In this document: positions 25,796 through 41,275 of the stretch, piece by piece
How the letters are laid out: each line of letters begins with the position of its first letter
How positions within the stretch are numbered: position 1 is the stretch's first letter
Assembly (NCBI GenBank): GCA_030263455.1
Contig: SZOZ01000001.1
Coordinates: forward strand, 62,001-126,000
Direction: 5' to 3'
Length of the DNA stretch: 64,000 nucleotides
DNA from: Synechococcales cyanobacterium CNB
GTDB lineage: Bacteria > Planctomycetota > Phycisphaerae > Phycisphaerales > UBA1924
The notes under the pieces: model-generated
The model's input: only the letters and a program-made list of their open reading frames with translations
Told to the model about the DNA's origin: nothing
Database searches by the model: none
Program-made: the position numbers and the translations under genes

Positions 25796-25832
25796 GCCGC
25801 CTTAGCTCAGTGGTAGAGCAGTGGTTTTGTAA
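25796..25832 (+). pseudogene. 5' half of a host tRNA-Thr(TGT) gene, split by the element
   Basis: The sequence reads as the first 37 or so nucleotides of a tRNA: acceptor GCCGCCT, D arm GCTC-AGTGGTA-GAGC, anticodon stem strand GTGGT and loop TTTGTAA (anticodon TGT). After the loop the sequence departs completely from a tRNA. The missing half is found 15.4 kb away at 41234-41275, whose ACCAC pairs perfectly with GTGGT and whose acceptor strand pairs with six of seven bases. The two halves are therefore one gene separated by integration. Confidence 0.9.
25826..25832 (+). repeat. attL core (left attachment site)
   Basis: TTTGTAA, the anticodon loop of the interrupted tRNA-Thr, is identical at 41234-41240. 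The flanks diverge at once on the element side. Crossover within an anticodon loop is a known site class for tyrosine recombinases. Confidence 0.85.
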
Positions 25833-26241
25833 TCGCCCGCTCTGCACGCGCCAAGCACAGTAGAACATGTGGGTTGCGCACGCCACGCCCGGGTGAGCAA
25901 GGCCGGAGAAAGGTGGACGCCGCCCGCCGCCCCGCGTTCTCGGGCAGTCCGGAAACGCGAACTGTCGCAATCGAGGGGCGCGGCGGTTGCCCGGGGGCGC
26001 ACGGGCGGTATCGTTTCTTCACATAGGCATGACCACTGCGCCGCGCTCGGTTGCCGCGGAGGCGCAGGAACGACCCGAGGCCCGGCACGACCGGCCGCCG
26101 ACGGCGAGTCCTAAGGCAACCCGGATGCGCCCACCGGCGCAGTCGTCACGCGAGCCCCCGCGAATCGTCGCGTTGCCCGGGGCACAGGACTGCCGCTGTT
26201 GTGATCCCTAATCGGGTCGCGCAAGCGATGGTGGTTCTGCC
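25833..26241. other. Left-end noncoding region of the element
   Basis: About 410 bp between the attL core and the Xis-like gene. I see no convincing gene: the small frames have no ribosome binding site or recognisable product. It presumably holds integrase/Xis arm sites and the promoter of the early operon. A relatively AT-containing stretch occurs at about 26009-26035 (TATCGTTTCTTCACATAGG). Confidence 0.5.
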
Positions 26242-26505
26242 ATGTCCGTACAGACTGTCCCCCTGCCCGAAGCCCCTGCGGGCGTCGGCCTCCTCACGAC
26301 CGAGGAGGCGGCGCGGTACCTGAGCATCTCGGCGAAGGAAATGGAGCGCATGCGCCGCGAGGGGCGCGGCCCCCGATGGGCCAAGTTCTCGCGGAAGCTG
26401 GTGCGCTACAGCATCGAAGAACTGCGCGAGTGGGTCGCCCAGCGGACCGTGAGCAACACGGCCGAGGGCAAGGCGATGCTGCGCCGGGAAGGCGGGGCCG
26501 CCTGA
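26242..26505 (+). CDS. AlpA/excisionase-like helix-turn-helix protein
   Basis: An 87-residue DNA-binding protein. LLTTEEAARYLSISAKEMERMRREGRGPRWAKFSRKLVRYSIEELREW follows the MerR-like HTH_17/AlpA pattern: a two-helix HTH, a wing with basic residues and a final SIEELREW. In phage satellites and prophages such proteins act as recombination directionality factors or as activators of the integrase/primase operon. It has no clear Shine-Dalgarno before ATG 26242. It overlaps the next gene by one base (TGATG), so it begins an early operon with the primase. Confidence 0.75.
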   Translation: MSVQTVPLPEAPAGVGLLTTEEAARYLSISAKEMERMRREGRGPRWAKFSRKLVRYSIEELREWVAQRTVSNTAEGKAMLRREGGAA

Positions 26506-26798
26506 TGCCGCGGAGCAGCACAAACAAGATTCTGCCCGGCCGGACGGTGGTCGTGCAGCACGGTCGCGAGGCGCTGTCGGGCGTCGTCGTGGCGGCCTCG
26601 GACCACCCCGTCTACGGCCCGTGCGTCGATGTGGAAGTTGCCGGGCGAGTCCGGCGGTTCGTCGCCGCCCGCGTGTCCCCGACCGAGGAGAGAAAGGGCC
26701 GCCAACCCGGCAAGGAACGCGGCCCGGTGCTTGATCGCGAGAAGTCTTGCGCAGGTTCGCACGCGCGACAAGCCGCCCAGCGGGGAGGTGCCCTGTGA
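26505..26798 (+). CDS. Small basic protein of unknown function
   Basis: A 97-residue protein with no recognised family. The first 55 residues look like a small beta domain (GRTVVVQHGREALSGVVVAA, then VDVEVAGRVRRFVAARV); the remainder is a basic, probably disordered tail. Its ATG shares a base with the stop of the Xis-like gene, and its stop overlaps the GTG of the primase, so the three genes are translationally coupled. A DNA or RNA-binding accessory to replication is possible but not shown. Confidence 0.6.
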   Translation: MPRSSTNKILPGRTVVVQHGREALSGVVVAASDHPVYGPCVDVEVAGRVRRFVAARVSPTEERKGRQPGKERGPVLDREKSCAGSHARQAAQRGGAL

Positions 26799-29302
26799 CG
26801 AGCCCCATCCCGCGATACGACGATTCGATTGGGTTCCTGCGGCGCTGGCGGCCGGATGGTCCGTGGCTGCTCACCGCCATCGGCCTCGACAAGACGGGCA
26901 TCGAGACCCGCGCCTTCCGCGCCGATCAGGAGGGCGAGCTCCGCAAGTGGCTGGAAGCCCAAGGTGCGGCCCGCAACATCTACTTCTCCGTCAACCCGAC
27001 GTTCCCGGCCTACATCGACCGGGCCGCCGCCGACGGACGCAGCAAGAAGACCGAGGCCACCGACATCGAGTCGATGGTCTGCCTGCACGTGGACCTCGAC
27101 CCGCGCGAGGGCGAGGACGTCGCGGCCGAGCAGCGGCGCATCCGCGAGCGCCTCACCACGAACCTGCCCGCGGGCGTGCCGCCGCCAACGCTGGTGGTGT
27201 TCTCCGGCGGCGGGTGCCAGGGCTTCTGGGCGCTCCGCGAGCCGGTCAGGCTGGACGGGTCGAAGGCGGCCGCGGAGGACGCGAATCGCTGGAACCTGCA
27301 GCTTGAAGTCGTGTTCGGCGCGGACCACTGCCACAACATCGACCGCATCATGCGGCTGCCCGGGACCGTCAACTGGCCCGACAGCAAGAAGAAGGCGAAG
27401 GGCCGCACCGCGGCGCTCGCGGAGGTCGTCGAGTGGCACCCCGAGCGTGCGTACGACATCGGGCAGTTCACGAAGGCCCCCGAGGTGCAGGCGGCTGGCC
27501 CCGCAGACTCCGGCATCGCTCGCAGCGCGCAGCGGGCCAAGGTAAGCGGCAACGTCAAGCGGTACAACGGCGACATCGACGCCGTCCCCGGCGCGGACAA
27601 GCTCACGCCGAAGGCGCGCGTCGTCATCGTGCAGGGCATCGACCCCGACGAGCCGCACAAGTTCGGCGGCTCGCGCTCGGAGTGGTTGCTCTTCGCGTGC
27701 TGCGCAATGGTGCGCGCCGGGTTCGACGACGACACGATGTACGCCGTCATCACCGACCCGGCCTTCGGCATCAGCGCGTCCGTGCTGGACAAGGGGAGCG
27801 CCACCGAGAAGTACGCCATCCGGCAGATCGAGCGCGGCAAGGAGGAGGCCGTCGATCCGTGGCTCCGTCGTCTGAACGAGCAGTTCGCCGTCGTCGCAGA
27901 CTTCGGCGGCCGCTGCCGAGTCGTGTGGGACGAGGACGACGAGGTCATGGGCCGCAAGCGGCTCCGCCACCAGGCATTCGAGGACTTCCGCAACAGGTTC
28001 ATGCACGTGCAGGTGCAGGTCGGCGCGACGGACAAGGGCGTCCCGATCACGAAGCCGCTGGGTCAGTGGTGGCTGCAGCACGAGCACCGGCGGCAGTACG
28101 AGCGCGTCGTGTTCGCGCCCGGCCGCGAGCTCGGCCCGCACGTCTACAACATGTGGCAGGGCTTCGCCTGCGACGCTCGCCCGGGCGACTGCTCCCTGTT
28201 CCTCGCGCACGTGCGGGAGAACCTCTGCCGCGGCGACGAGCGAGCGTACGAGTACCTGATGAACTGGATGGCCCGCTGCGTCCAGCGCCCCGCCGAGCCC
28301 GGCGAGGTCGCCGTGGTGCTGCGAGGCAAGGAGGGCACCGGCAAGGGGTTCGTCGCCAAGACGTTCGGCGGACTGTTCGGTCGTCACTACGTGCAGGTCA
28401 CGGACCCCAAGCACCTCGTGGGTTCCTTCAACGCCCACCTGCAGGACATCGTGGTCGTGTTCGCCGACGAGGCTTTCTACGCGGGCGACAAGAAGCACGC
28501 CAGCATCCTGAAGACGATCATCACCGAGAGCGAGAAGCTGGTGGAGCGCAAGGGTGTGGACGCCGAGCCCGCCCGCAACTACGTGCACCTCATCATGGCG
28601 TCGAACGAGGACTGGGTCGTCCCCGTCGGGCTTGAGGACCGCCGGTTCTTCGTGCTCGACGTGGGCGAGGGGCGCATGCAGGACTCCGCGTACTTCGAGG
28701 CGATCAGCCAGCAGATGCGCTCGGGCGGTCGCGAGGCGCTCCTGCACCTGCTGCTCACGCGGGACGTCAGCAGCTTCCGCGTGCTGGGCGACCGGCCGCT
28801 CACCGATGCGCTGGCCGCCCAGAAGCAGCAGACGCTCCGCGGGCCGGAGAGCGTGCTGCTCGACTACCTCGTGCGCGGCGTCGCGCCGGGCACCGACCTC
28901 GACAAGTCCGACGACCCCGCGCGGTTCCGGCTGGAGGACTTCCAGGTCGCGGCGAAGTTCGATACGCCGACCCGGGCGCTGTGGTGGCTGGAGTCTCGGG
29001 GCGTGCTCGACCAGCAGCACCCGCGGCTCACCTACCGCGCCACGGTCTACGCCGTCCCCGGCGAGCCCAAGGTGGGGCGGTTCCGCTACCTCACCGACGT
29101 TCCAGAGCCGTTCCGCTCGCGGGCCGCGAAGCGCAAGGGCCGGACGATGTACCGCTTCCGCCCGCTCGGCGAGATCAGGGCGATGGACCCGTGGCGCGGT
29201 CTCGTGACGGACTGGCCGCACCCCGAGGAGTGGACGCTCCGCCGCGACCTGCCCAGCGTGGGCGAGGACGACATCAAGCCGGGGCAGGACGTCCCCTTCT
29301 GA
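26795..29302 (+). CDS. Primase-helicase replication protein (AEP-like primase plus SF3/D5-type helicase)
   Basis: An 835-residue replication initiator. The N-terminal half resembles archaeo-eukaryotic primase folds: HVDLDP (D100, D102) as a metal-binding pair, SGGGCQGFW at about 137-145, and MRLPGTVNWP. The C-terminal half is a D5/DUF5906-like superfamily 3 helicase: Walker A GKEGTGKG near 512, Walker B VVFADEAF near 555, sensor MASNEDW near 600, and an Arg finger in LEDRRFF. GTG 26795 overlaps the previous stop and has GGGGAGG upstream. Such proteins prime and unwind DNA at an origin in phages, plasmids and P4-like satellites; iteron-like repeats lie 700 bp downstream. Confidence 0.88.
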   Translation: MTSPIPRYDDSIGFLRRWRPDGPWLLTAIGLDKTGIETRAFRADQEGELRKWLEAQGAARNIYFSVNPTFPAYIDRAAADGRSKKTEATDIESMVCLHVDLDPREGEDVAAEQRRIRERLTTNLPAGVPPPTLVVFSGGGCQGFWALREPVRLDGSKAAAEDANRWNLQLEVVFGADHCHNIDRIMRLPGTVNWPDSKKKAKGRTAALAEVVEWHPERAYDIGQFTKAPEVQAAGPADSGIARSAQRAKVSGNVKRYNGDIDAVPGADKLTPKARVVIVQGIDPDEPHKFGGSRSEWLLFACCAMVRAGFDDDTMYAVITDPAFGISASVLDKGSATEKYAIRQIERGKEEAVDPWLRRLNEQFAVVADFGGRCRVVWDEDDEVMGRKRLRHQAFEDFRNRFMHVQVQVGATDKGVPITKPLGQWWLQHEHRRQYERVVFAPGRELGPHVYNMWQGFACDARPGDCSLFLAHVRENLCRGDERAYEYLMNWMARCVQRPAEPGEVAVVLRGKEGTGKGFVAKTFGGLFGRHYVQVTDPKHLVGSFNAHLQDIVVVFADEAFYAGDKKHASILKTIITESEKLVERKGVDAEPARNYVHLIMASNEDWVVPVGLEDRRFFVLDVGEGRMQDSAYFEAISQQMRSGGREALLHLLLTRDVSSFRVLGDRPLTDALAAQKQQTLRGPESVLLDYLVRGVAPGTDLDKSDDPARFRLEDFQVAAKFDTPTRALWWLESRGVLDQQHPRLTYRATVYAVPGEPKVGRFRYLTDVPEPFRSRAAKRKGRTMYRFRPLGEIRAMDPWRGLVTDWPHPEEWTLRRDLPSVGEDDIKPGQDVPF

Positions 29303-29316
29303 CAGGAGGTAGAGCG

Positions 29317-29562
29317 ATGCGCACGTTCGCGCAGTACATCCGATCCGTCCGCGCCACGGACGACCCGCGCGGCGACTTCATCGCCGACGCCAAGGCGGAA
29401 GCCAAGGCTGGCAGGCTGCCGCGCATCCAGTGCTGGGAGGATCTCCGCGCCCACCTGCGCATGCGCCGCGCTTGCCCCGAGGCGGTGCGGGCCGCCGCCA
29501 CGGTGTGGGACGAGTACGAGGCGGCGCTGCTCTCGCCCCGCCGGTCCCGCCCGGGGCCCTGA
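29317..29562 (+). CDS. Small protein resembling the YozE SAM-like fold
   Basis: An 81-residue protein with a very strong ribosome binding site (AGGAGGT) before ATG 29317. The pattern FAQYI..., DPRGDFIADA, WEDLRAHL and VWDEYEAAL follows the spacing of YozE_SAM_like proteins (a Firmicute and phage family of small helical proteins of uncertain function). The match is by eye and weak. It ends the primase operon and precedes a long noncoding region. Confidence 0.6.
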   Translation: MRTFAQYIRSVRATDDPRGDFIADAKAEAKAGRLPRIQCWEDLRAHLRMRRACPEAVRAAATVWDEYEAALLSPRRSRPGP

Positions 29563-29581
29563 CCCCCTACCTCCCCTCCCA

Positions 29582-29603
29582 CCCCCGCTCCCGCGGGAGG
29601 GGG
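29582..29603 (+). terminator. GC-rich hairpin after the primase operon
   Basis: CTCC-CGCG-GGAG with flanking C and G runs (29582-29603), 20 nt after the stop of the YozE-like gene. No U tract follows, so it may act as a weak or factor-dependent terminator or a transcript-end stabiliser. Confidence 0.4.
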
Positions 29604-30003
29604 CCACGCTCCCCACCTCCTATCCCATCTGGAAACTGCGCAGAGGGGGGTTCCCGTCCGAGCCGCGCCGGTGCGGAGGAGGCAGACGCGCACCCGCTGG
29701 GCGTCCGGCAGCGAGCCCGCAGCGCTCCGCGCGACCTGACCGCATCGACACCCGCGCGCCGCCGGAGCTCGCCCGCGCGCTCGACCGGCGGCGCGCCGAC
29801 TCTCGCCGACCGCTGCCCACGCCCAGAGAGGTTCCGCGACCCGGGCGGCGCATTCGCCAGCGCCGGAACTCCGGGGCCGACGGGACCGGCGCGGAGCCCG
29901 CGCGGGTGCGGCCGAGGCGTCGGTCCATCCTCACACCTCGCCGCGCGCCCGCCCGCGCCGCACGCACCGGCGCTGCCGCGGTCGCCCGGGGTGCGGCCGA
30001 GGG

Positions 30004-30090
30004 GTCCGCTTGTCTCCCCAGACCCGCGCGAAGTCCGCTTGTCTACCGAGGTCCGCTTGTCCCTAGGAGTCGGACGAAAGTCCGCTTGTC
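30004..30090 (+). repeat. Four direct repeats GTCCGCTTGTC (iteron-like) with a hairpin
   Basis: Exact 11-bp copies start at 30004, 30033, 30051 and 30080, with spacings of 29, 18 and 29 bp. The last copy forms one arm of a hairpin, CGGAC (30071-30075), GAAA loop, GTCCG (30080-30084). Repeats of this kind next to a replication protein are typical iterons bound by an initiator. Confidence 0.7.
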
Positions 30091-30134
30091 TTTCCGTACC
30101 CGTCCATCCATCCGCGCCGCTCGGTCTCTCCGCG

Positions 30135-30260
30135 CCCGTCCACCGGCTCGCGCAGGTCTACCCGCTCCACCAGCTCCACCCGCTCCACCACCTCGCGCAG
30201 GTCCACCGGCCGGGCGCGATCCAACGCGCCGCGCAGGTCCACTCGCCCGGGCGACTCGCG
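30135..30260 (-). repeat. 9-bp-periodic tract (reads Val-Asp/Glu-X on the minus strand)
   Basis: Consecutive 9-mers such as CAGGTCTAC, CCGCTCCAC, CAGCTCCAC, CCGCTCCAC and CAGGTCCAC run in register. On the minus strand they read GTGGACCTG, GTGGAGCGG and so on. If translated, the frame gives three-residue repeats V-[DE]-X and ends at a TAG near 30065, but there is no convincing start. Related tracts on the plus strand lie at 31644-31727 and 32029-32121. Confidence 0.6.
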
Positions 30261-30456
30261 TACTCCGCGCCGCCCCGCGCGGTTCGGTCCAATCTTCGCC
30301 TCGCGTCGTGCTGCCGCGCCGCGTCGTGCGCTGGCGGGCGGGCGGGGCCGCGGCGGGTTGCCCCCGCGTCGGTCGCTTGCGATCTAACTCTGTCGCAGCA
30401 GCGCCGCGGGGCAACGGGGCCGCCGGGCGAGAAGCTGCGACAAGTGGAGCTAACCG

Positions 30457-30741
30457 ATGTTCACGAAGTCTTGGACGCTGGCGAGGGCGTGCGTGGAGCT
30501 GCGCGACGGGCTGAGGCGGGGCGAGTGGGTGGGCCGCGAGCGCTCGTTCGCGGAGGTCCACCTCACGCTCGGACCTCGCATGGTCCCCGAGGTCCACGTG
30601 GGCCACATGGACGGCGCGGCGCGTTGGAGCTACCGCGGCTGGCGGGCGCTCGCGATCTTCGAGCGCCTCGCGAAGGGCGCGGGCCGGGCTGCGGGCGTCG
30701 CCGAGCTCGTGGAGCCGATGGGCCTGCGGCGCGCCGCCTGA
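30457..30741 (+). CDS. Small protein of unknown function
   Basis: A 94-residue basic protein with no recognised family. GGAG lies 8 nt before ATG 30457. The composition is balanced (Trp, Phe, His and Tyr all present), unlike the shadow frames around it, which supports a real gene. It contains CVELRDGL, echoing the Val-Glu-Leu-Arg theme of the nearby 9-bp tracts. No function can be assigned. Confidence 0.55.
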   Translation: MFTKSWTLARACVELRDGLRRGEWVGRERSFAEVHLTLGPRMVPEVHVGHMDGAARWSYRGWRALAIFERLAKGAGRAAGVAELVEPMGLRRAA

Positions 30742-30845
30742 CCGCGGGCGGGCTTGCCCGGGCGGGCGGTGTGCGAGAGAGAAGTATCGACACGCTGCGT
30801 CGGCGGGGCGTCGCCCGCGGGCCGCGCGTGGACCAACCGGAGCGA

Positions 30846-31220
30846 ATGGACATGGCGAGCGAGCACGAGATTCTGGCGGCGGTGAGCGCCCTCCACCTGG
30901 ACCCCGAGAAGGTCGACGTCGACCAGGTCGCCGACCTCCTCCACTCCGCCCTCTCGGCGGCCGCGGAGGAGGCGGTGGAGGCGATGGACCTGCGCGACGA
31001 GGTCGAGTCGATCGCGGAGCGCTGGCTCGGCGACCAGTTCGACATCGAGCAGGCGCTCGAAGGGGTGGACCTGCTGAGCTACGTGGACGAGGAGGGGCTC
31101 GCCCGGGCGGTGGGCGAGGTGGTGGAGGACGAGGTCGGGGAGGCGGCGGAGTTCGCCGACCGGCTCCGGCGGGCGGGCCTCTGGGTGCGCCTCCGCTGGC
31201 TCCTGACCGGGCGGCTCTAG
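30846..31220 (+). CDS. Small acidic helical protein of unknown function
   Basis: A 124-residue, strongly acidic protein, probably all helical, with repeated VEAMDLRDEVES, VDLLSYVDEEGL and VGEVVEDEVGEA segments. The last 20 residues are basic and hydrophobic (LWVRLRWLLTGRL). CGGAGCGA precedes ATG 30846; ATG 30852 is a second start. An acidic small protein in a mobile element could be a DNA mimic or an assembly factor, but nothing proves this. It is followed by a kilobase of noncoding DNA. Confidence 0.6.
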   Translation: MDMASEHEILAAVSALHLDPEKVDVDQVADLLHSALSAAAEEAVEAMDLRDEVESIAERWLGDQFDIEQALEGVDLLSYVDEEGLARAVGEVVEDEVGEAAEFADRLRRAGLWVRLRWLLTGRL

Positions 31221-31400
31221 GCCCCGCGGCGCGGCGGGCGGCCCGGCGGGGCGGCGTGCGGTCGGCCGCGGCCCGGGCGGCGGGAGTCGGGGCGGCTCTC
31301 GGGAGTCTGGGTCCGGGATTCTGGCTCGGTCCGGAAATGGCGGGTGGAGAGACGCGAGGCACACGCTCGTTTGGGTTTCGACCCGCAGTTGGAAACCAGC

Positions 31401-31504
31401 GAGTCGCAGAGTCGCCTCCGGCGCGCAACCCGGAGGCCCATAGGGACCGGGTGGCGGGCGGCCGCCGCTGGCCCCCGGGTTTGGTCGGCCCGACTCTGCG
31501 ACTC
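31401..31504. repeat. 14-bp perfect inverted repeat with 76-bp spacer
   Basis: GAGTCGCAGAGTCG at 31401-31414 and its exact reverse complement CGACTCTGCGACTC at 31491-31504. The right arm continues into further copies of [CG]CGACTC (31490, 31498, 31507). The spacer contains a smaller CTCCG...CGGAG hairpin. A transcript could fold into a long stem; alternatively these are binding sites for a dimeric protein. Confidence 0.65.
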
Positions 31505-31538
31505 TTGCGACTCCGTGCAGCAATCTATGTGTCTTCTT

Positions 31539-31578
31539 GAGAGTCTCTTCAACTAAAAGAAAGACTCTAAAGACTCTC
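31539..31578. repeat. AT-rich hairpin / possible DNA-unwinding element
   Basis: GAGAGTCT (31539-31546) pairs with AGACTCTC (31571-31578). A second AGACTCT at 31562-31568 offers an alternative pairing. The intervening CAACTAAAAGAAAG is the most AT-rich stretch of the element, as expected for an unwinding region or promoter. Confidence 0.45.
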
Positions 31579-31643
31579 GCTACCGGCTGCCGCCTGGGCG
31601 AACGGGTGGAGGGACCGGCCGTCGCACTTCGGACGCTCAGATC

Positions 31644-31727
31644 GTGGACGAGCGCGATGTAGTGGAGTCGTTGGACCCAGGGAAGATGGTGAATCTCGTG
31701 GGTCACGTGGAGTCGTTGGACCCAATG
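31644..31727 (+). repeat. 9-bp-periodic tract with an 18-bp direct repeat
   Basis: GTGGAGTCGTTGGACCCA occurs at 31662-31679 and again at 31707-31724, exactly 45 bp (five 9-mers) apart. The intervening DNA keeps the same 9-bp register. Translated, it gives V-E-S-L-D-P-like triplets, but the frame soon degenerates. Confidence 0.6.
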
Positions 31728-32028
31728 CCGCGGCCGCGACCCGCGCGATGCGATGGACCTGGGCGACCCCACCCTGCGCCCTTGTCCCGAAACCTTCGAC
31801 CCCGGGGCTGCCCGCCCGTGCTTCGGCCTTGCTCGCCGCCTCGCTGGGCGCTGCTGCCCGCCGCGGAACGGCCCCAGGAGCGTGCAGCGCAAGCCCGGCG
31901 ACGCTGGACCTGCCGATCAGCACTCCTCCGCTCCGCCGTCGCGATGCGGTAGTGGGGCCGGTGGACGTGGTCGCGAGGTGGAGGCAGTGACGATGCACGA
32001 TCGGCACGAGTCGCAGTGATCGCACGAG

Positions 32029-32121
32029 TCGTTGGACGTGGTGGAGCGAGTGGACCTGCGCGAGCGATTGGAGCCGGTGAAGTCGTTGAGTTTGGTGAAG
32101 AAACTGGACCGGGTGCCCCTC
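32029..32121 (+). repeat. 9-bp-periodic tract, plus strand
   Basis: TTGGACGTG, GTGGAGCGA, GTGGACCTG, CGCGAGCGA, TTGGAGCCG, GTGAAGTCG and following 9-mers. The 15-mer GTGGACCTGCGCGAG (32050-32064) recurs in inverted orientation at 30192-30206. A short frame runs through it from just after a TGA at 32017 to a TGA near 32178, without a ribosome binding site. Confidence 0.55.
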
Positions 32122-32241
32122 CCCACCATCCCAACCGTGCCCGTCGCGCCGCCCTTCGTCTCACGACTACTCGCGTGACGCGCGCCCCCGCGAGCCGCAA
32201 CACCCGCCGCCGAGCGTTGGCGCGGAGATGATTCGATCGAC

Positions 32242-32889
32242 ATGAGCACCAGCCAGCGACAGCCAGTGACCGAGCGGCGCAAGGCCGCGTTCCTCGAGGC
32301 GCTGCGGCAGACCGGCAGCCTCCGCTGGGCGGCCGCCATCGCCTCGCCCCACCTGGGCGGGGAGCCGCGGCCGGGCGGCAAGGCCCGCGGGTTCGAGAGC
32401 TTCCGCGACGCCATGCGCCGCGACCCGGTCTTCGCCGCGGAGGTGGAGGAGGCGCTGTCGGTCGCGCTGGGCACCGCCGAGAAGCTGCTCGCCGAGCGCA
32501 TGCTGACGCCCGACACGCGGCCCATCGTGGACAAGAACGGCGCGGTCGTCGCCGTCGCCACCGACCACCGCAACGCGAACACGCTGCTGCTGCGGTTCCT
32601 CGAACGGCACTCGCCCGACCACTGGGCACCGAAGAAGCAGCTTTCGGGCACCGTCACGCACGACCACACGCACCAGCACACGCTCGGCCCGGCCAGCCCG
32701 GGCTACACCATCACCGCCGACGACCTGCTCGCGCTGCCCGACGACAAGCGCCGCCTGCTGGTCTCGATCCTCGACGAAGTGGAGCACAACCGTGAGCAGC
32801 CCGAGCCCGTCGCCACCGTCCCCGCACTCCCCGCGCCCGAGCCGCCTGTCGCTGATGGCGATGAAGAAGCGGGCGGGCCTCGCGACTGA
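32242..32889 (+). CDS. Terminase small subunit-like DNA-binding protein
   Basis: A 215-residue protein. The first 90 residues read as a helix-turn-helix followed by helices (RRKAAFLEALRQTGSLRWAAAIAS, then GFESFRDAMRRDPVFAAEVEEAL), a layout common in phage small terminase subunits that recognise the packaging site. The tail is Pro-rich. No large terminase is visible anywhere in the element, which fits satellites that hijack a helper phage's packaging motor through their own TerS. The match is by eye; another HTH protein is possible. ATG 32242 has GGAGATG 11 nt upstream. Confidence 0.5.
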   Translation: MSTSQRQPVTERRKAAFLEALRQTGSLRWAAAIASPHLGGEPRPGGKARGFESFRDAMRRDPVFAAEVEEALSVALGTAEKLLAERMLTPDTRPIVDKNGAVVAVATDHRNANTLLLRFLERHSPDHWAPKKQLSGTVTHDHTHQHTLGPASPGYTITADDLLALPDDKRRLLVSILDEVEHNREQPEPVATVPALPAPEPPVADGDEEAGGPRD

Positions 32890-33193: not shown

Positions 33194-33347
33194 TCGCGCC
33201 GAGACGTCGTGACACGACGGGGCTTGTCGCCAGTCGTCGCGTCGGGAGAGATTCCTCCGATCGCCGACCGCGGCGCGGTCCTGACTGCGGCTCCCTGACT
33301 GGTGGGGGCCACCGCGAGCGCTGCCGAGCGACGCACGGAGTCCCGAC

Positions 33348-34133: not shown

Positions 34134-34142
34134 GCCCGACCC

Positions 34143-34412: not shown

Positions 34413-34414
34413 CC

Positions 34415-34813
34415 ATGCGGTACGACGACTTCTTCGCAGGTGCCCACGAGCACATCTTCGCCGAGCCCACGCGGCGCGCGATGGACACGCTGGGCGCTGG
34501 CCGACACGACATCGCGCAGGTGCGCGCCGTGTGCGAGCGGCTCGGTGCCCGCCTCGCGCCCGTAGCCGCCTCGCTCGGCTGGCTGCCGCGGCTGGGCGAC
34601 CCGGGCGAGTACGTGGACATCACCGAGAGCAGCGACGGGCACGCGGCGCTCGATACCGCGGACCACGAGACGGTGTGCGCGTTCGCGCTCTGGCGGCACC
34701 GCCGCGAGCCGCTCCGCACGAAGGTCGTGGTGTGGCCGGAGCGGTACCGGCCCGGCCGCGCGCCGTGGCAGATTGCCGAGCACGTGCACCCGCACGCCCG
34801 CGACAACGACTAG
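34415..34813 (+). CDS. Hypothetical protein
   Basis: A 132-residue soluble protein. CGAGGG lies upstream of ATG 34415, which begins 2 nt after the preceding stop. It is rich in His, Trp and Arg, with segments RYDDFFAGAHEHIF, GEYVDITESSDGH and TVCAFALWRHRREP. No family is recognised. A strong hairpin follows and probably ends this operon. Confidence 0.6.
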   Translation: MRYDDFFAGAHEHIFAEPTRRAMDTLGAGRHDIAQVRAVCERLGARLAPVAASLGWLPRLGDPGEYVDITESSDGHAALDTADHETVCAFALWRHRREPLRTKVVVWPERYRPGRAPWQIAEHVHPHARDND

Positions 34814-34883
34814 ACCCTGTCCGCTGGTCGTCGGGCCTCGCGCCCGGCGGCCGGTTTCCTCGCCCGGGCGCGTGCCCGGTCAA

Positions 34884-34914
34884 CCCGCCGCGCTGTGTTC
34901 GTCGGCGCGGCGGG
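34884..34914 (+). terminator. Perfect 10-bp hairpin
   Basis: CCCGCCGCGC (34884-34893) pairs exactly with GCGCGGCGGG (34905-34914) across an 11-nt loop, followed by CTTCC. It lies 70 nt after the previous stop codon, so it is a likely transcription end for the operon starting at 32242. Confidence 0.6.
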
Positions 34915-35062
34915 CTTCCACGATCCGAAGCCGTCCCCCGAGTCGGTGCGCCCGGCGCGGCGCACCCCGGGGGCGGCGCTCCGGCTTGTCTTGCGACTGA
35001 TCGTGAGAGATGACTCTCTCGCCGCCGCGGGATTGGCCGCGGCCCAGCGAAGGAGCCCGCCA

Positions 35063-35581
35063 ATGGATCGGAACGCCGTCGAGTCGATGTCCCTCGGCAA
35101 CCTCGCGAAGCTCTACAACGAGCTCTGCCCAGAGAGGCCGGTGAAGAAGTTCGCCGACCGCAAAGCCGCGGTGCGGCGGGTGCTCGCCGCCCTGGAGGAG
35201 CGTGCGGCCGCGGAGCCCGCCCAGCCGGAGCCCGCCAAGGCCCCGGCCCGCGAGAGCCGCCCTAGCCGCCGCGAGAGGGCCGCGGAGCACAAGCAGCACA
35301 CGCCCACCGGGGAGCTCCGGCCGCCCCGCCCGGGGTCGAAGCGCGGCCGCCTGCTCGCCGCCCTCATGGGCGACGGCATGACCGCGGAGCGGATCGCGTC
35401 CGAGTTCGGGTGGAAGCCGCGCGACGTCGCCGACGCCCTGCGCCTGCTGGCCGTCGCGAACGGCTACGTCGTCTACCGCGAAGAGGGCGGCGACACGTGG
35501 CGGGCCGCGGAACCGGAGCGCGACGCCGAGCCGGTGCGAGCGGCCGCACAGCCCGGGCCGAAGCGCCGGAGGGCGAAGTGA
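35063..35581 (+). CDS. DUF3489-like winged-helix protein
   Basis: A 172-residue basic protein. The N-terminal part LAKLYNELCPERPVKKFADRKAAVRRVLAAL and the C-terminal PGSKRGRLLAALMGDGMTAERIASEFGWKPRDVADALR follow the DUF3489 pattern, a small winged-helix domain common in phage and integrated elements. A disordered Arg/Pro linker joins the two. ATG 35063 has AAGGAGCCC upstream. A role in DNA binding or regulation is likely; the target is unknown. Confidence 0.65.
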   Translation: MDRNAVESMSLGNLAKLYNELCPERPVKKFADRKAAVRRVLAALEERAAAEPAQPEPAKAPARESRPSRRERAAEHKQHTPTGELRPPRPGSKRGRLLAALMGDGMTAERIASEFGWKPRDVADALRLLAVANGYVVYREEGGDTWRAAEPERDAEPVRAAAQPGPKRRRAK

Positions 35582-35625
35582 ACCGGCTGCTTGTCCCGGG
35601 CCTCGCGGGCTCGACGATTCGGGGC

Positions 35626-35835
35626 ATGAGCATCAAGCGGCTGGTGGCGTGCGCGGCGCTGGCGACCCTCGCGGGTTGCTCCACGCCGCCGCGCCCGACG
35701 CAGACCATCGCGCCCGACGCCCCGCTCGCGAGCCCGAGCGGCTGGCGCAGCGGGATCGTGGACCAGGCCATCCGCGAGGCGCGCGAGCGCCGGTTCATCC
35801 GCGACCTGTGGCGGGCGGGGGAGGCATCGCGCTAG
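35626..35835 (+). CDS. Small lipoprotein
   Basis: A 69-residue protein with a lipoprotein signal (SIKRLVACAALATLAGC, lipobox LAGC with Cys at about residue 18) followed by a short Pro-rich and then helical tail. ATG 35626 gives the normal signal; a GTG at 35578 overlapping the previous stop is in frame. Small lipoproteins in phages include outer-membrane spanins (Rz1) and exclusion proteins; neither can be proved. Its TAG stop shares a base with the GTG of the sigma-factor gene. Confidence 0.6.
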   Translation: MSIKRLVACAALATLAGCSTPPRPTQTIAPDAPLASPSGWRSGIVDQAIREARERRFIRDLWRAGEASR

Positions 35836-36644
35836 TGCCGTCGCCGTTCGTGCCCCATCCCGCCTTCGACCTGCCCGACGCCGAGTCGCTCGTGTGGCGC
35901 TCCGCGCCGGAGCTCCCGCCGCCGCCCGACGTCTACCTCGACCGTGCTGCGGAGGTGCGCCCGCCGACTCGACCTTCGGTGCTGCTGACACGCCAGGAGG
36001 AGCTCGTGCTGTTCGTCCGCCTGAACTACGCGCGCCGCCGCGCGGCCGAGACGGCGGACCCCGACTGGGCCGCGCGAGCCCGCGACCTCGAGGACGCGGT
36101 GGTTCGTTACAACGTCGGGCTCGTGATGTCGGTCGCGGGGTACGACGAGGAGGCCGAGGCCGAGGGGCTCGCCACGCTCGTGCACGCGGCGCGGCACTTC
36201 GACGCGGCCCGCGGCTGGAAGTTCAGCACCTACGCGATGCGCGCGGTCTGCCGGAGCATCAGTCGGCTCCGCGGCCGTCAGGCCCGGCGGGCGGCCAGCG
36301 GGCGCGCCGTGCTCTGCGCGGGAGACCAGGTGCTGCAGCAGGGCGAGAGCGCCCGGTCCATCGCCGCCCACCGCGCGGCGCGGGAGGCCGAGCGAGCCGC
36401 CGAGCGCGAGGAGGAGCGCGCCGACCGCCTGCGCAACGCCGTCGCCCGGGCGGGACTGACGCCGGACGAGCGACACGTGCTGTCCCGCCGCGTCGGTGCG
36501 GAGGGCAGGCCCCCCAGCTTCGAGTCCATCGGCCGCGAGCTCGGGCTCACGAAGGAGCGGGCGCGGCAGCTGCACGAGGACGCGCTCGCGAAGGTGCGGG
36601 CGGCGTACGAGGGGCCGCGAAGTGGAAGTGCGGCAGCGGGGTAG
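35835..36644 (+). CDS. RNA polymerase sigma-70 family factor of the element
   Basis: A 269-residue sigma factor. Region 2 is seen in VVRYNVGLVMSVA, EGLATLVHAARHFDAARGWKFSTYAMRAVCRSISR (about residues 90-150), and region 4 in PSFESIGRELGLTKERARQLHEDALAKV near the C-terminus. The linker between them is highly charged. It starts at GTG 35835, overlapping the lipoprotein stop, with GGGGAGG upstream. It would direct host RNA polymerase to element or helper-phage promoters; an element of this size carrying its own sigma factor is unusual. Confidence 0.87.
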   Translation: MPSPFVPHPAFDLPDAESLVWRSAPELPPPPDVYLDRAAEVRPPTRPSVLLTRQEELVLFVRLNYARRRAAETADPDWAARARDLEDAVVRYNVGLVMSVAGYDEEAEAEGLATLVHAARHFDAARGWKFSTYAMRAVCRSISRLRGRQARRAASGRAVLCAGDQVLQQGESARSIAAHRAAREAERAAEREEERADRLRNAVARAGLTPDERHVLSRRVGAEGRPPSFESIGRELGLTKERARQLHEDALAKVRAAYEGPRSGSAAAG

Positions 36645-36688
36645 CGTTGGAGTGACAATGCGAGCCGTCGCCCTTACCCTGTGGGGCG

Positions 36689-37696
36689 ATGTCCCAAGCG
36701 AACCCAGCCGCCACCCCGGCCCCGACGATCGGCACCCGCACCCCGGAGTTTGCGGCCCAACTGCTCCGCGACCTGTACGTAGATTTGCGACGCGACCTCG
36801 CCCGCTGGGCGTCCGTGACACACCAGACTCCGCAGCCCCGCATGGGCTATGTCGGGCAGCACCTCGTCAGCGTCGTAACGGGCCACCCCGGTGGGCGCTC
36901 TGGGGCGCGAGGCGATGACATCAAGCTGCCGGGCGGGAAGGTGGCCGAGATCAAGTGCTGCTACCGCGTCGACCAACTCGGTGCGTGCGCCCGGTGCGGC
37001 ACGGCGGTCGCGAGCATCGAGAAGGTCTGCCCGAACCAGGAGTGCGGGAGCGACAGGCTCGTCCGCAAGGACGACTCGAAGTGGCTGCTCTCGCCGAAGG
37101 ACGAGCAGGAGTTGCGGGAGTTGTTCATCCCGGAGTGCTACTACCTCGTGCTGTTCGAGTTCGCCGACATCGCCGCGGCGGACGACATCGACGTGCAGAT
37201 TCTCGAGGTGGACCCGAAGTGTCTCGGCTTCGCCCTCTGCATGATCGACTACTACTTCAACATTCGGGCCAACTCGTCGTCCAAAGCTCCCTTCAACCTG
37301 TGGCCCGACAGCCCGAAGCTGTACATGATGAAGCCGCGGATGATCTACTGGTCGGTTATCAAGGCCGACGACACGATCGACACCAAGCTGTTCCCCGGTC
37401 GGGACGAACCAGTGCTGCAGCGACTTGGCAACCTCGCCGACTACTCGGGCTCCGACACGTTCTCGGAAGCGGCAATCGACGCCGTGGCCGCGGCTCGCGG
37501 CGTGCAGTTCCCGCGGCTCGGCCTGCCCACCGCCGCTGGGCAGCGGAGGAAGAAGAAGCTGGAGCTCCTGCAGCAGCGACGCGAAGCGGAGCATTGGCCC
37601 GACGACGCGCTCGCCGACGACTTCGCCCGAGCCGTGTTCCGGAGCAAGGTTGCCGCGCACGCAGACTGGACGAGGCAGTACGCGGCGACGCTGTAG
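36689..37696 (+). CDS. Type II restriction endonuclease (PD-(D/E)xK, Cys-cluster)
   Basis: A 335-residue protein paired with the convergent DNA methyltransferase. A PD-(D/E)xK-like active site is visible: D76/D77 in GDDIKL, then E87 and K89 in AEIKCC. Four Cys (C100, C103, C114, C119) form a probable zinc site (CARC, CPNQEC) close to the active site. The family may be that of MamI-type enzymes, but this is a guess, and the recognition sequence is unknown. Its stop and the methyltransferase stop are 2 nt apart, the classical convergent R-M layout. Confidence 0.7.
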   Translation: MSQANPAATPAPTIGTRTPEFAAQLLRDLYVDLRRDLARWASVTHQTPQPRMGYVGQHLVSVVTGHPGGRSGARGDDIKLPGGKVAEIKCCYRVDQLGACARCGTAVASIEKVCPNQECGSDRLVRKDDSKWLLSPKDEQELRELFIPECYYLVLFEFADIAAADDIDVQILEVDPKCLGFALCMIDYYFNIRANSSSKAPFNLWPDSPKLYMMKPRMIYWSVIKADDTIDTKLFPGRDEPVLQRLGNLADYSGSDTFSEAAIDAVAAARGVQFPRLGLPTAAGQRRKKKLELLQQRREAEHWPDDALADDFARAVFRSKVAAHADWTRQYAATL

Positions 37697-37698
37697 CG

Positions 37699-38730
37699 TC
37701 ACTTGCCGAACAAGTCGTTCTGTTTGGCAACGCCACCCGCGAGACGTTTGTTGGCCCGCTCTGCCATTTCAGGGTCTATCTCGAATGCGATGCACTTTCG
37801 GCCGAGCATCTTGGCGACGACCGCTGACGTTCCGGAGCCCGCGAACGGGTCCAGAATCACCTGCCCGGGCGTGCTGCTCGCGAGCGCCAGCCGCTCGATG
37901 AGCCGAACTGGCTTCTGCGTCCTGTGTATCCGGTCCTCCGCGTAGAAGTCGATATCCTGCCAGACGTTCGTCAGGCCCATCTGCGGCTGGAAGACGAACC
38001 CCTTGAGGTCGTCGGGGGCCTTGAAGTCGAGCACCGACTCCAGCCGCTCCCACATCTCCGGCGTCGGCACCTGGGCGAGGATGTTCTCGCCCGTGTAAAG
38101 CGACCAGACGCCGCCGCCATTGCTCTTGACGCCGAGGCGCGAGTTGATCTCCTTCGCGGACAGGCCGAGCTCCTTCGCGCGGGCGAGAAGCACCTGCCGG
38201 ATGGCGGGCTTGGCGTCGTAGACGAAGAAGAAGATTGTCTCGGTCGTATTCGGGAACTGCTTGTACGTGCTCGTCTTTCGCCCGGCGATGCACTTGATGC
38301 CCTTGTCCACGATGAGCTCCTGCCGGAACTCGAAACCCAGCGAGACGATGTCGTGGAACAGGTACACGAGGTTCCGCACATAGCCAAAGAGGTACAGCGA
38401 CGCGGATCGCTTGCACACTCGGGCAACCTCCGCGAACCACTCGCGGCACCACGCGCGGTAGTCCTCTTCCGTCCGCCACTTGTAGTCCCACGTCTCGCCG
38501 ACGACCTTCCAGTACGGAGGGTCGAGGATGACGAGGTCCGCGCAGCGGTCGGGTAACCGCCGGAGGAGGTGTAGGGCGTCGCCCGTCGTAACCCGGCCGT
38601 AAAGGTCTTCGGGTACGAGCGGCACGCTCGGCGTATGGCCGCGGTCGGCCTGAACCTCTACCGGAGGCTTCCGGCGGGCGTTGGGGCGAGGGCTGTACTC
38701 TCTCTTCGGCTTTGTTTCCGGGGTCAGCAT
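37699..38730 (-). CDS. DNA methyltransferase (beta class, N6-adenine or N4-cytosine)
   Basis: A 343-residue methyltransferase protecting against the adjacent endonuclease. Motif IV LDPPYW lies at residues 69-74 and motif I DPFAGSGT near 294-301, the beta-class order. The middle part, 90-280, is the target recognition region. I chose ATG 38730 (MLTPETKP), which begins just before conserved-looking sequence; in-frame ATGs at 38814 and 38865 would add up to 45 poor residues and no start has a good Shine-Dalgarno. DPPY allows methylation of adenine N6 or cytosine N4. Confidence 0.88.
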   Translation of the reverse strand: MLTPETKPKREYSPRPNARRKPPVEVQADRGHTPSVPLVPEDLYGRVTTGDALHLLRRLPDRCADLVILDPPYWKVVGETWDYKWRTEEDYRAWCREWFAEVARVCKRSASLYLFGYVRNLVYLFHDIVSLGFEFRQELIVDKGIKCIAGRKTSTYKQFPNTTETIFFFVYDAKPAIRQVLLARAKELGLSAKEINSRLGVKSNGGGVWSLYTGENILAQVPTPEMWERLESVLDFKAPDDLKGFVFQPQMGLTNVWQDIDFYAEDRIHRTQKPVRLIERLALASSTPGQVILDPFAGSGTSAVVAKMLGRKCIAFEIDPEMAERANKRLAGGVAKQNDLFGK

Positions 38731-38853
38731 GTGCGGTAAGGATACTGGTGCCGCGGGCGGGGGACACGCTTGCCCGCGGCAATCGGGCAAGATCGCCCGT
38801 CCCGTCGTCTGCATGGGGTTGTCGCCACGCGCCGGGAGGCCATCCTTGTTCGC

Positions 38854-39114
38854 ATGGCGACACATCAGGCAACCGGCGCGAGTGGCTTTCTAATCGTGTG
38901 GGTATCGGAGGACGGCGAGGCGGTCGGGCTGGCGATCGCCGACGATGCGGCGGCTGTCGTGCGTCACCGAGCGGAGGCGCGGTGGGACTTGCGATTCGCC
39001 CGGTGCGCTGCCGAGGTGTACCCGGTCTCCGAGGTGGCCCAGCGGCTCGGCATGCCCGAGAACTCGCCAGCGGCGCGGGTTCTTGAGGCGATGTTCGCCC
39101 GCGGCGCGGCATGA
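38854..39114 (+). CDS. Hypothetical small protein next to the R-M system
   Basis: An 86-residue protein with GFLIVWVSEDGEAVGLAIADD and a helical C-terminus (AEVYPVSEVAQRLGMPENSPAARVLEAMF) that could be a helix-turn-helix-like tip. It starts at ATG 38854 (in-frame ATG 38770 upstream) and lies divergent from the methyltransferase gene. A control protein of the R-M system is conceivable but no C-protein signature is present. Confidence 0.5.
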   Translation: MATHQATGASGFLIVWVSEDGEAVGLAIADDAAAVVRHRAEARWDLRFARCAAEVYPVSEVAQRLGMPENSPAARVLEAMFARGAA

Positions 39115-39153
39115 TGGCGACAGTCCGCCGCCGGTCGTGCCGATGTTGACGGC

Positions 39154-39663
39154 ATGGGTGAAGTTGCCGTGATCTATCGGGTTGTCTTGCTGCCAACTGG
39201 GGAGAGCTATACGGGTTCGTACGCCCACCCGACCGGCCTGATTCCGGAGTCCGGTGTCGGGCTGCCGCCCGGGAAGAGAGGCGGGAGGAATCACGGTTGG
39301 TGGGACAAGTTCTCTCGCGGACACGACAAGTCCGAGTGTCGGTGGGAGAGGCTCGAAGTCCTAGATGCCGCCAACAAGGACTACGTGCGGGAGCGGCGTG
39401 ATTGGTGGATTGCGAGAGACCGGCAACTGAACCCCGCTGGCAACCGGAACGGGCCGCGATCCGGCAACGTCGCGGGCTTCCGGTGCTCGCAGGCGGACCG
39501 AGTCACAGAGCACCTCAAGAGCCGCCCCGCAAGTGTTGATGACCTCGCCGCCGAGCTTGGCATCACGAGGGAGGACGCCCGAAGGGCGATCTCCTGCATC
39601 CGCGCACGCGCCGAGCAGGTCGCCAAAGACGGCAGGCGATACTTCATCCGCGATGCCTCGTGA
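39154..39663 (+). CDS. GIY-YIG-like nuclease with C-terminal HTH
   Basis: A 169-residue protein. The start VIYRVVLLPTGESYTGSY follows the GIY-YIG pattern (IYR for GIY, YTG for YIG, correct spacing), and E80 in YVRERRDWWIARD followed by QLNPAGNRNG matches the catalytic-Glu and Asn region of the family. The C-terminal 50 residues (RVTEHLKSRPASVDDLAAELGITREDARRAI) form a winged-helix/HTH. This layout is seen in phage and homing endonucleases. The motifs are degenerate, so activity is uncertain. It ends 27 nt before the element's tRNA-Thr on the other strand. Confidence 0.6.
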   Translation: MGEVAVIYRVVLLPTGESYTGSYAHPTGLIPESGVGLPPGKRGGRNHGWWDKFSRGHDKSECRWERLEVLDAANKDYVRERRDWWIARDRQLNPAGNRNGPRSGNVAGFRCSQADRVTEHLKSRPASVDDLAAELGITREDARRAISCIRARAEQVAKDGRRYFIRDAS

Positions 39664-39690
39664 GCAACGCAACCGTCACAGCCGCCCGAA

Positions 39691-39763
39691 AGCCGAGAGC
39701 CGGGATCGAACCGGCGACCTCATCATTACAAGTGATGCGCTCTACCAGCTGAGCTATCCCGGC
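39691..39763 (-). tRNA. Element-encoded intact tRNA-Thr (anticodon TGT)
   Basis: A complete 73-nt cloverleaf on the minus strand: acceptor GCCGGGA/TCTCGGC (all paired, one G-U), D stem GCTC/GAGC, anticodon stem CATCA/TGATG with loop CTTGTAA (anticodon TGT), T stem GCCGG/CCGGC with loop TTCGATC, discriminator T. It has the same anticodon as the host gene the element has split but a different body, and its loop differs at one base from the att core. It starts 14 nt after the integrase stop in the same orientation, so it is probably cotranscribed with the integrase. Confidence 0.95.
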
Positions 39764-39777
39764 GAGGTCTGGACAGT

Positions 39778-41085
39778 TTACGCACCGTCGGTGCCCGTGG
39801 CGCGGAGCGGCCGCCCGTCGGCGTCCACCTTGACCTTCGCCAGCAGGAATGCCGCCACCCGCTCGACGCAGCCGCGGAGGTGCTCGTCGCTGGGCCGCTG
39901 GTACCCCTCCGTGACGTCCTGCTCGGGCAGGACGTGGTTCATCAGCACCTTGGTCTCGAACAGGCCGACTCCCGCCTCGCGGCAGGCGCTCGCGAACGTG
40001 TCGCGCAGCCGGTGCGGCGACGGGAGGTACCGCTCCTTCCGGAGGTCGTCGGCCTCGCCCTTGATGTAGCGGTACTCCTTCTGCTCTTTGACGTGCGTTA
40101 CCCGGCCCTCGCGGTCCCGAGACGGGAACGCCCAGCCCTGATCCGACGAGAAGTACCGAAGGTTGTCCAGCCGCCGCTTCGCGAGCATCGCCAGCGCGAA
40201 CCGGCACAGCGGGATTGTGAACGCGCGGTCAACGCCGCCCTTCGGCCGCGGCCGGTGCAGCGTGCCAGCGTCGAAGTCCACATCCGACCACCGGATCGTC
40301 TTGGCGTCGCCGCTGCGGAGCCCTGTGAGCAGCGTGAGGATGTGCAGGTCGCGCCGGACGGGATTCTCGATGCCCTGCACCTTCTCCCACCACCCGGGGA
40401 GCTCGGCCCACGGGATCGGCGAGCGCTTGCGCCGCTGGGCGTTGAACTCGACCGCCTCGACCGGGTTGGGCGGTAGGTCGGGGTGCAGCTTCCGGGCGCT
40501 GTTGTACGCGGCCCGGAGGATGCGCATGGCGCTGTTCGCCACCACCGGGCCGTGGTCGGCGGACACCTTGCGGTGCCGCGTGACACAGTCCGTCCGGGTG
40601 ATGCCGACGAGCGGCCGCGAGCGCCAGTCGGGCATGTACCGATCGACGAGCTCGCCCATAGTGTCCATCGACCGCTGGGCGCACCCCTTGGCCTTCATGC
40701 GGAGGACGTGCTCGGTGATGGCTTGGTCGAGCGTGTACCGCTCCCACTCCGTCCGCCGCTGCCGGGCCTCCTGCTCGCGCCGCCTCGCCCGCGGGTCGAT
40801 GCCCTTGTCCATGTCAACGAGCAGTTCCCGCGCCCGCTTCCTCGCCTGATCCGGCACCCAGGTGGGGTAGCGGCCGATGTTCTCGCGCACCGTCGTGCCG
40901 CCGATGTCCTTCTGGGCGATGAAGCTCTTGGTGGTGCGGCTCGCGAGGAGCCCGAAGCCCGGTAACTCCGAGTCCCAGTAGATTCGCTGACGCACGGGCT
41001 TGCCGCGCGCGTTGACCTCGCCCGGCTCCGGGCACCTGCACCGCCGCTCGACCGAGTCCGCCGTGAGCTTGAACCTGTCCGACAT
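39778..41085 (-). CDS. Tyrosine site-specific integrase of the element
   Basis: A 435-residue tyrosine recombinase that integrates and excises the element at the tRNA-Thr site. The N-terminal part (residues 25-110) is a DUF4102-like arm-binding region; the core-binding domain follows (about 115-210). Catalytic residues: R257 (TGLRSGDA), K282, H358 and R361 (HRLR), H384 and Tyr395 (EGYQRP). AAGGAG stands 8 nt before ATG 41085. It lies 148 bp from attR and reads into the element, the standard arrangement. Confidence 0.93.
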   Translation of the reverse strand: MSDRFKLTADSVERRCRCPEPGEVNARGKPVRQRIYWDSELPGFGLLASRTTKSFIAQKDIGGTTVRENIGRYPTWVPDQARKRARELLVDMDKGIDPRARRREQEARQRRTEWERYTLDQAITEHVLRMKAKGCAQRSMDTMGELVDRYMPDWRSRPLVGITRTDCVTRHRKVSADHGPVVANSAMRILRAAYNSARKLHPDLPPNPVEAVEFNAQRRKRSPIPWAELPGWWEKVQGIENPVRRDLHILTLLTGLRSGDAKTIRWSDVDFDAGTLHRPRPKGGVDRAFTIPLCRFALAMLAKRRLDNLRYFSSDQGWAFPSRDREGRVTHVKEQKEYRYIKGEADDLRKERYLPSPHRLRDTFASACREAGVGLFETKVLMNHVLPEQDVTEGYQRPSDEHLRGCVERVAAFLLAKVKVDADGRPLRATGTDGA

Positions 41086-41233
41086 CGCCGCCGCTCCTTC
41101 CGGTTGAGAAAGGTCTGAGTAAGGTCGGCATGGAGCGCCACCGGGGTTAGCCGGGGAGCACCAAACCGCTCTAACTGTGCGGCAGAGGGGGTCGAGGACA
41201 ACCGCGGGTCTCTGGTACCCTTGGACGCTACGA

Positions 41234-41240
41234 TTTGTAA
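41234..41240 (+). repeat. attR core (right attachment site)
   Basis: TTTGTAA identical to attL, immediately followed by ACCAC, the 3' strand of the host tRNA-Thr anticodon stem. The element side (CGCTACGA) is unrelated to a tRNA 5' half. Confidence 0.85.
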
Positions 41241-41275
41241 ACCACAGGTCCCCGGTTCGAATCCGGGCGGCGGCT
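41234..41275 (+). pseudogene. 3' half of the host tRNA-Thr(TGT) gene
   Basis: Anticodon loop TTTGTAA, stem strand ACCAC, variable loop AGGTC, T stem CCCGG/CCGGG with loop TTCGAAT, acceptor CGGCGGC and discriminator T. Joined to the half at 25796-25832 it makes a full tRNA-Thr(TGT) with one mismatch (T7 and C66), which may be early decay after interruption. tRNA-Tyr follows 177 bp later; a Thr-Tyr tRNA pair is a common bacterial arrangement. Confidence 0.9.

Follow-up and report, generated by a model that had tools for sequence, protein, structure and literature searches.

Transfer RNA (tRNA)-dependent lysogeny was described and tested in 2024 in the actinobacteriophages Fionnbharth, LeBron, Gaia, Mollymur and others (Guerrero-Bustamante and Hatfull, PMC10865867). 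These phages integrate over a short core in a host tRNA gene that is not rebuilt, and they require a phage tRNA of the same isotype, without which plaques are clear. The mechanism is experimentally proven in mycobacteriophages, closely related phages differ in whether they restore or replace the tRNA, the targets in actinobacteriophages are Lys(UUU), Ile2(CAU) and Leu(CAA), and the authors urge searches elsewhere (PMC10865867). Similar tRNA substitutions were reported for prophages of Sinorhizobium meliloti (PMC11476347) and, as far as the citation in PMC10865867 goes, for the Lactobacillus prophage Lj965. Here we analyze a 64,000-nt stretch of DNA (the window; contig SZOZ01000001.1, positions 62,001 to 126,000) from a genome placed in the Phycisphaerales of the Planctomycetota. 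The window contains an element, E1, that interrupts the tRNA-Thr(UGU) gene of its host and brings along, as cargo, an intact tRNA-Thr(UGU) of different sequence. Related elements in this and other genomes are numbered E2 onward.

E1 measures 15,408 bp from core to core, and the two halves of the host gene flank it:

25796..25832, forward strand: 5' half of the host tRNA-Thr(UGU) gene, through the anticodon loop; it refolds with the 3' half and equals the intact gene of genomes G056 and G669
25826..25832, forward strand: core of the left attachment site (attL), TTTGTAA, the 7-nt anticodon loop and the sole sequence common to both junctions
41234..41240, forward strand: core of the right attachment site (attR), TTTGTAA, from the junction comparison
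41241..41275, forward strand: 3' half of the host tRNA-Thr(UGU) gene, from the junction anatomy and refolding of the rejoined gene
39691..39763, reverse strand: cargo tRNA-Thr(UGU), called by ARAGORN and by Rfam (69.8 bits), the sole intact UGU tRNA among 45 tRNAs

A reading made from the letters of the window alone (the sequence-only reading) had claimed that the host gene is cut in its anticodon loop and that neither end of the element restores it. Both claims hold. GTGGT at 25821-25825 pairs with ACCAC at 41241-41245, and the rejoined halves give a 72-nt tRNA-Thr(UGU) with a 5-bp anticodon stem (ARAGORN); attL and attR are identical only over TTTGTAA, the entire anticodon loop, and neither junction carries a complete tRNA. 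The empty site is found in relatives: two genomes of the same genus, G056 and G669, carry an uninterrupted gene equal to the rejoined halves over 72 nt, and it is syntenic with the window flank, next to a photolyase gene and tRNA-Val(GAC). The right-hand flank of the gene lies on another contig in both of these assemblies. Chance or misassembly as the source of the split was ruled out by the empty sites and by nine further complete elements of like design.

The intact tRNA-Thr of the same anticodon that the sequence-only reading placed inside the element was confirmed as well; it starts 14 nt beyond the integrase stop codon (39778-39780) and is identical to the host gene at 50 of 73 positions. 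The source genome (G000) is a 3.2-Mb draft of 17 contigs, 98.7% complete, and its tRNA set was collected from Rfam matches and individual loci, with anticodons read by ARAGORN. Rfam gives 45 tRNAs, to which an intron-bearing tRNA-Arg(CCU) is additional. The threonine tRNAs are the cargo Thr(UGU), one Thr(GGU) and one Thr(CGU); there is no second intact Thr(UGU), and a pattern search of the genome for the anticodon matched only the cargo and the host 3' half. By general decoding rules, Thr(GGU) and Thr(CGU) should not read ACA. Because ACA is used in host genes (in all five that were counted), a UGU tRNA is expected to be essential. The codon is rare among the element genes counted.

Our reading, which we consider about 93% probable, is that a satellite-like element splits tRNA-Thr(UGU) by integrase recombination at a 7-bp core and that its cargo tRNA of the same anticodon substitutes for the broken gene. 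A tyrosine integrase would act on the 7-bp core of the element's attachment site (attP) and on the host anticodon loop, which has the same sequence; symmetric core-binding arms for the enzyme would probably come from the anticodon stem. Because attP contains no tRNA half, integration destroys the host gene. The clearly different cargo tRNA, which lies downstream of the integrase gene and is probably expressed from its own -10 box, would then assume ACA decoding and keep the cell alive. Precise excision, which we infer, would rejoin the host gene and leave a circle with the predicted junction ggacgctacgaTTTGTAAtcgcccgctc. The idea that the element addicts its host, raised by the sequence-only reading, needs care: since precise excision would rebuild the host tRNA, the element would be unprotected against its own clean loss, which would go unpunished. 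While the gene is split, a cell should die if its cargo tRNA is deleted or decays, or if one of the attachment ends is lost.

How general is this arrangement? Searches with the integrase covered the order, the whole phylum and a second class within it, and for each element both tRNA halves were located and rejoined and the product was refolded. Ten complete elements were found in eight genomes, three in the source genome and one each in G125, G212, G246, G044, G547, G450 and G708; loci with an end missing or not found (G621:C2, G547:C36, G736 and, in G020, E8) were left out of this count. In all ten elements the host tRNA is split, the rejoined halves fold as a tRNA, and the cargo is a different tRNA with the anticodon of the split gene (Thr-UGU in one, Arg-UCU in seven, Arg-CCU in two). 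This recurrence supports the earlier proposal that the cargo compensates for the split gene. The block of identity between attL and attR is exactly the 7-nt anticodon loop in eight elements, 12 nt in E2 and 10 nt in E13; core-to-core lengths range from 11.1 to 16.8 kb, and each element carries one cargo tRNA, save for one spurious ARAGORN call within E5. The Arg(UCU) sites of G125, G212, G246, G044 and G000 consist of the orphan 3' half and the cargo only, with one extra pattern match in G044 that has no tRNA character. In G547 (contig C37) an intact tRNA-Pro is followed by an intact tRNA-Arg(UCU), and in G450 and G708 the split gene lies beside tRNA-Pro; the G547 locus is likely an empty site in another genus. 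Because it is found in ten elements, with three isoacceptors and several unrelated cargo tRNAs, the splitting and replacement of a tRNA is a standing strategy of this family of small satellite-like elements.

Few genomes have an integrase of this family: 7 of 301 in the order and 9 of 154 in the second class. A scan of a genome-contig collection gave three loci only, all in Phycisphaerales; among the best matches in plasmid and phage collections there were only integrases less than 30% identical, and no relatives were found in the IMG/VR viral contigs. Three incomplete loci are candidate split tRNAs: a 3' half of Arg-CCU that lies close to an intact CCU tRNA (L141, G621 contig C2:36000-49000), a 5' half of a CAU tRNA (L073, G547 contig C36) and a 5' half of Arg-CCU (L195, G736). 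Broken or truncated family integrases lie 2 to 5 kb from an intact tRNA-Arg(CCU) in G450, G633 and G726 (L075, L076 and L197), and may be relics of elements or of domesticated cargo.

The two other elements of the source genome have integrases 63-64% (E2) and 45% (E3) identical to that of E1. In E3 (contig C12, 11.4 kb) the split gene is tRNA-Arg(UCU), and an intact tRNA-Arg(UCU) of different sequence immediately follows the integrase gene. In E2 (contig C2, 15.0 kb) the split gene is tRNA-Arg(CCU), and the integrase gene is followed by a cargo tRNA-Arg(CCU) whose anticodon loop is interrupted:

L051:9642-10013 (G000 contig C2), reverse strand: cargo tRNA-Arg(CCU) of E2 with a 299-nt insert in the anticodon loop

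For each of these two anticodons the element copy is the only one found in the genome, so that the cell has three element-borne tRNA genes: Thr(UGU), Arg(UCU) and Arg(CCU). Uninterrupted Arg(UCU) and Arg(CCU) genes are present in G056, the former with 5.2 kb of matching left flank. When the insert in the E2 cargo is removed on paper, a perfect 74-nt tRNA-Arg(CCU) with the loop TTCCTAA results. The insert follows a U, has G as its last nucleotide and shows, in order, CAAUCCCGAGCC, AGAGACCA and GAGAUGGUCC, which are core motifs of group I introns; P4 and P7 pairing is possible by inspection, and the Rfam group I model RF00028 gave no match to the insert at E<=1. We regard the insert as a probable group I intron. 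It would divide the recognition sequence of the integrase and may therefore shield the replacement gene from the element's own enzyme. The notion that a divergent anticodon stem alone protects the cargo was rejected, as the host and cargo stems of E5 differ by one pair. The source genome also contains a weak tRNA (L046:201-272, contig C6:531-602; 33.7 bits) that is tRNA-Asn-like with the anticodon GCU and is possibly a decaying paralogue.

Between its two cores, E1 carries the following recognized genes and signals in addition to the cargo tRNA:

26242..26505, forward strand: helix-turn-helix protein, excisionase/AlpA-like regulator (Pfam HTH_17, 8.6e-11; phrog_66 excisionase and transcriptional regulator, 2.4e-9)
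26747..29302, forward strand: primase-helicase (DUF5906, 9.8e-21; phrog_1829 DNA primase, 2.8e-68)
32242..32889, forward strand: terminase-small-subunit-like protein (phrog_4044, 4.4e-7)
35649..36644, forward strand: Sigma-70-region-4-type protein (Pfam Sigma70_r4, 2.8e-10; phrog_351, 2.4e-15)
36689..37696, forward strand: MamI-like type II restriction endonuclease (Pfam RE_MamI, 1.7e-13; PADLOC REase_II, 1.8e-84)
37699..38865, reverse strand: DNA methyltransferase of the restriction-modification (R-M) pair (Pfam N6_N4_Mtase, 4.3e-36; PADLOC MTase_II, 2.3e-40)
39775..39780, reverse strand: putative -10 box TAAACT of the cargo tRNA, a conserved motif overlapping the integrase stop codon
39778..41085, reverse strand: tyrosine integrase, 435 amino acids (Pfam Phage_integrase, 3e-13, and Arm-DNA-bind_3, 2e-10; phrog_1, 2.4e-35)

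The window from 29430 to 32242 is a 2.8-kb region without recognized genes that has short imperfect tandem repeats with units of 17 to 20 bp.

What might drive the cargo tRNA? The motif GCGTARAMT (with TAAACT or TAGAAT), which includes the integrase stop codon, is conserved at seven junctions between integrase and cargo, in E1 to E7, and the spacing from the putative box to the tRNA is short and similar among elements (11 nt in E1, 12 nt in E3). Of 44 tRNA genes of the genome, 13 are preceded by a TANNNT box at a comparable distance, against an expectation of 1.0 from shuffles. We read the motif as a putative promoter of the cargo tRNA, which would permit expression of the tRNA with the integrase off. 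Transcription of integrase and cargo from the host tRNA promoter was considered and rejected as a general answer; it suits the geometry of E2 to E7 and E13, and in the inverted E1 an own promoter is needed.

Proteins of E1, E2, E3 and E9 were searched for annotation, those of E10 in part, and E4 to E7 and E13 lie outside it. E2 and E3 share the gene plan of E1 with other R-M systems, and E9 has a small terminase, a primase and a methyltransferase. No capsid, portal, large terminase or tail family was recognized among the searched proteins of E1, E2, E3 and E9, in which the only virion-related matches were small-terminase-like proteins (1.5e-15 and 6.1e-16 for the E2 and E9 counterparts of the E1 protein) and a scaffold-like protein in E3. 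The annotated elements thus combine an integrase, an AlpA/excisionase-like regulator, a primase, a small terminase, no recognized structural genes and a length of about 10-17 kb, the features looked for in phage-inducible chromosomal islands (PICIs), and the gene set resembles that of PICIs. We keep to the label satellite-like, because the elements have no known helper and the viral contigs gave no relatives.

The cargo tRNAs look functional. In an alignment of six different cargo Arg(UCU) sequences, five from complete elements and one from E8, 99.2% of pair cells fit the cloverleaf, and 13 of the 21 pairs have changed on both sides; none of 500 shuffles and no slid version approaches this conservation. 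Elements E3 (L050) and E4 (L060), which are 97% identical over their common parts, have different R-M regions and different cargo tRNAs with the same anticodon. The integrases of E1 (Thr) and E2 (Arg-CCU) are sisters with different targets and matching cargo in each case; therefore, target and cargo changed together.

Elements that restore their target occur at the same tRNA-Thr(UGU) gene in G128 (contig C42, L168/L177) and probably in G669 (L136/L137), where an intact gene is accompanied by a 3' fragment. The G128 element contains a phage capsid gene, and within the stretch read neither has an integrase of the E1-type family. In G113 (contig C44, L178:12788-12863), the sole tRNA-Arg(UCU) has exactly the sequence of the E3 and E7 cargo, and no family integrase was found in the 14 kb read around it; this genome either represents the donor lineage or carries a domesticated cargo. 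One may speculate that a widespread satellite-like family takes over essential tRNA genes of Planctomycetota, that decay leaves the foreign tRNA as the permanent sole copy, that mobile elements thereby drive the turnover of core tRNAs, and that the Arg(CCU) intron shields the cargo from its own integrase, but taken together we find this picture doubtful.

Could E1 be an ordinary tRNA-targeting island whose attP restores the tRNA, with the restored copy overlooked? Islands in tRNA genes as a rule restore their target (Islander, PMC4383910), and E14 (G715, L194:827-16895) does so: it has a 39-bp block of the 5' half in common with the target, and an intact tRNA-Arg(UCU) is rebuilt at one end. 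The E14 integrase shares 91% identity with the one in E10 (G450), an element that has 7 bp in common with its target and a different cargo tRNA. At E1, however, the junction sequences refute classical restoration, the identity being 7 bp without a complete tRNA at either end, and the internal copy diverges from the host gene at 23 of 73 positions; we give this alternative almost no credence. It is also highly improbable that the host halves are spliced in trans, or that the element is removed from the RNA like an intron, so that the gene still works. Split tRNAs exist in archaea, where a mobile-element origin of tRNA disruption has been proposed (PMC3293823), but the insert here spans 15.4 kb and has genes in both orientations, no intron occupies this position in same-genus genomes, and an intact tRNA of the same anticodon makes trans-splicing unnecessary. 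A split tRNA of the archaeal type, for which there should be no other gene for the anticodon, was rejected with the same intact Thr(UGU) in view. We know of no trans-splicing of bacterial tRNAs.

Codon supply and resistance to host tRNA nucleases are the standard proposals for phage tRNAs (PMC10865867), and the cargo could chiefly serve replication of the element in these ways, its anticodon matching the split gene by coincidence. We consider this very unlikely, as the match holds in all ten elements and for three isoacceptors, the related integrases of E1 and E2 enter different genes with matching cargo each, ACA is rare in the element genes, and each element has a single cargo tRNA. Replacement of the split tRNA by the cargo thus remains our preferred explanation, against which three points must be set. 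A second Thr(UGU) might be hidden in a gap of the draft assembly, which is possible though unlikely because the sister genome G056 gives a single pattern match for this tRNA. That the cargo tRNA is expressed and that the viability of the host depends on it, we infer from sequence. Finally, a strict two-hexamer sigma-70 scan found no promoter for the cargo tRNA, leaving the conserved motif as the candidate.

Our findings widen the range of tRNA replacement at integration: besides whole phages it now includes small satellite-like elements, and a phylum in which it was not known from the literature searched. A search in the manner of Islander, for a restored tRNA together with a fragment, would miss all ten elements. 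The family makes testable the switch between restoring and replacing (E10 versus E14), the escape of the cargo from its own integrase, and the permanent exchange of essential tRNA genes through mobile elements. We found no report of such elements in Planctomycetota or in satellites, in a literature search that was thin on subscription journals.

As tRNA-dependent lysogeny, the principle has been published before (PMC10865867), and it is not new in kind. Both systems use a tyrosine integrase and an attB (the host attachment site) in a tRNA gene that is not rebuilt, both carry a tRNA of the same anticodon that is not closely related to the host gene, and in both the related integrases include restoring and replacing forms. 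The common core is 8-17 bp in the phages and 7-12 bp in the elements, and the need for the cargo tRNA, proven in actinobacteriophages, is predicted here. The likeness is limited to the mechanism: actinobacteriophages have virions, whereas these are 11- to 17-kb elements, without recognized structural genes in those annotated, which by the genes found are not phages; their hosts are Planctomycetota, their targets are Thr-UGU, Arg-UCU and Arg-CCU, one cargo bears an intron, and one genome holds three of them. The S. meliloti and Lj965 prophages also replace a host tRNA with a prophage-borne isoacceptor, according to their authors, but are single prophage cases in other phyla and are not satellite-like with R-M cargo. 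Classical islands of the anticodon-loop class (Islander, PMC4383910) likewise use a tyrosine integrase with crossover in the anticodon loop, but their attP includes a piece of the tRNA and rebuilds the gene, as only that of the relative E14 does here. PICIs and other phage satellites are alike in size, integrase, regulator, primase, small terminase, absence of capsid genes and accessory defense genes, but replacement of the entered tRNA is not described for PICIs in the literature searched, whereas these elements replace theirs. What is new here is the principle in capsid-less elements, in another phylum, with new isotypes and with an intron-bearing cargo.

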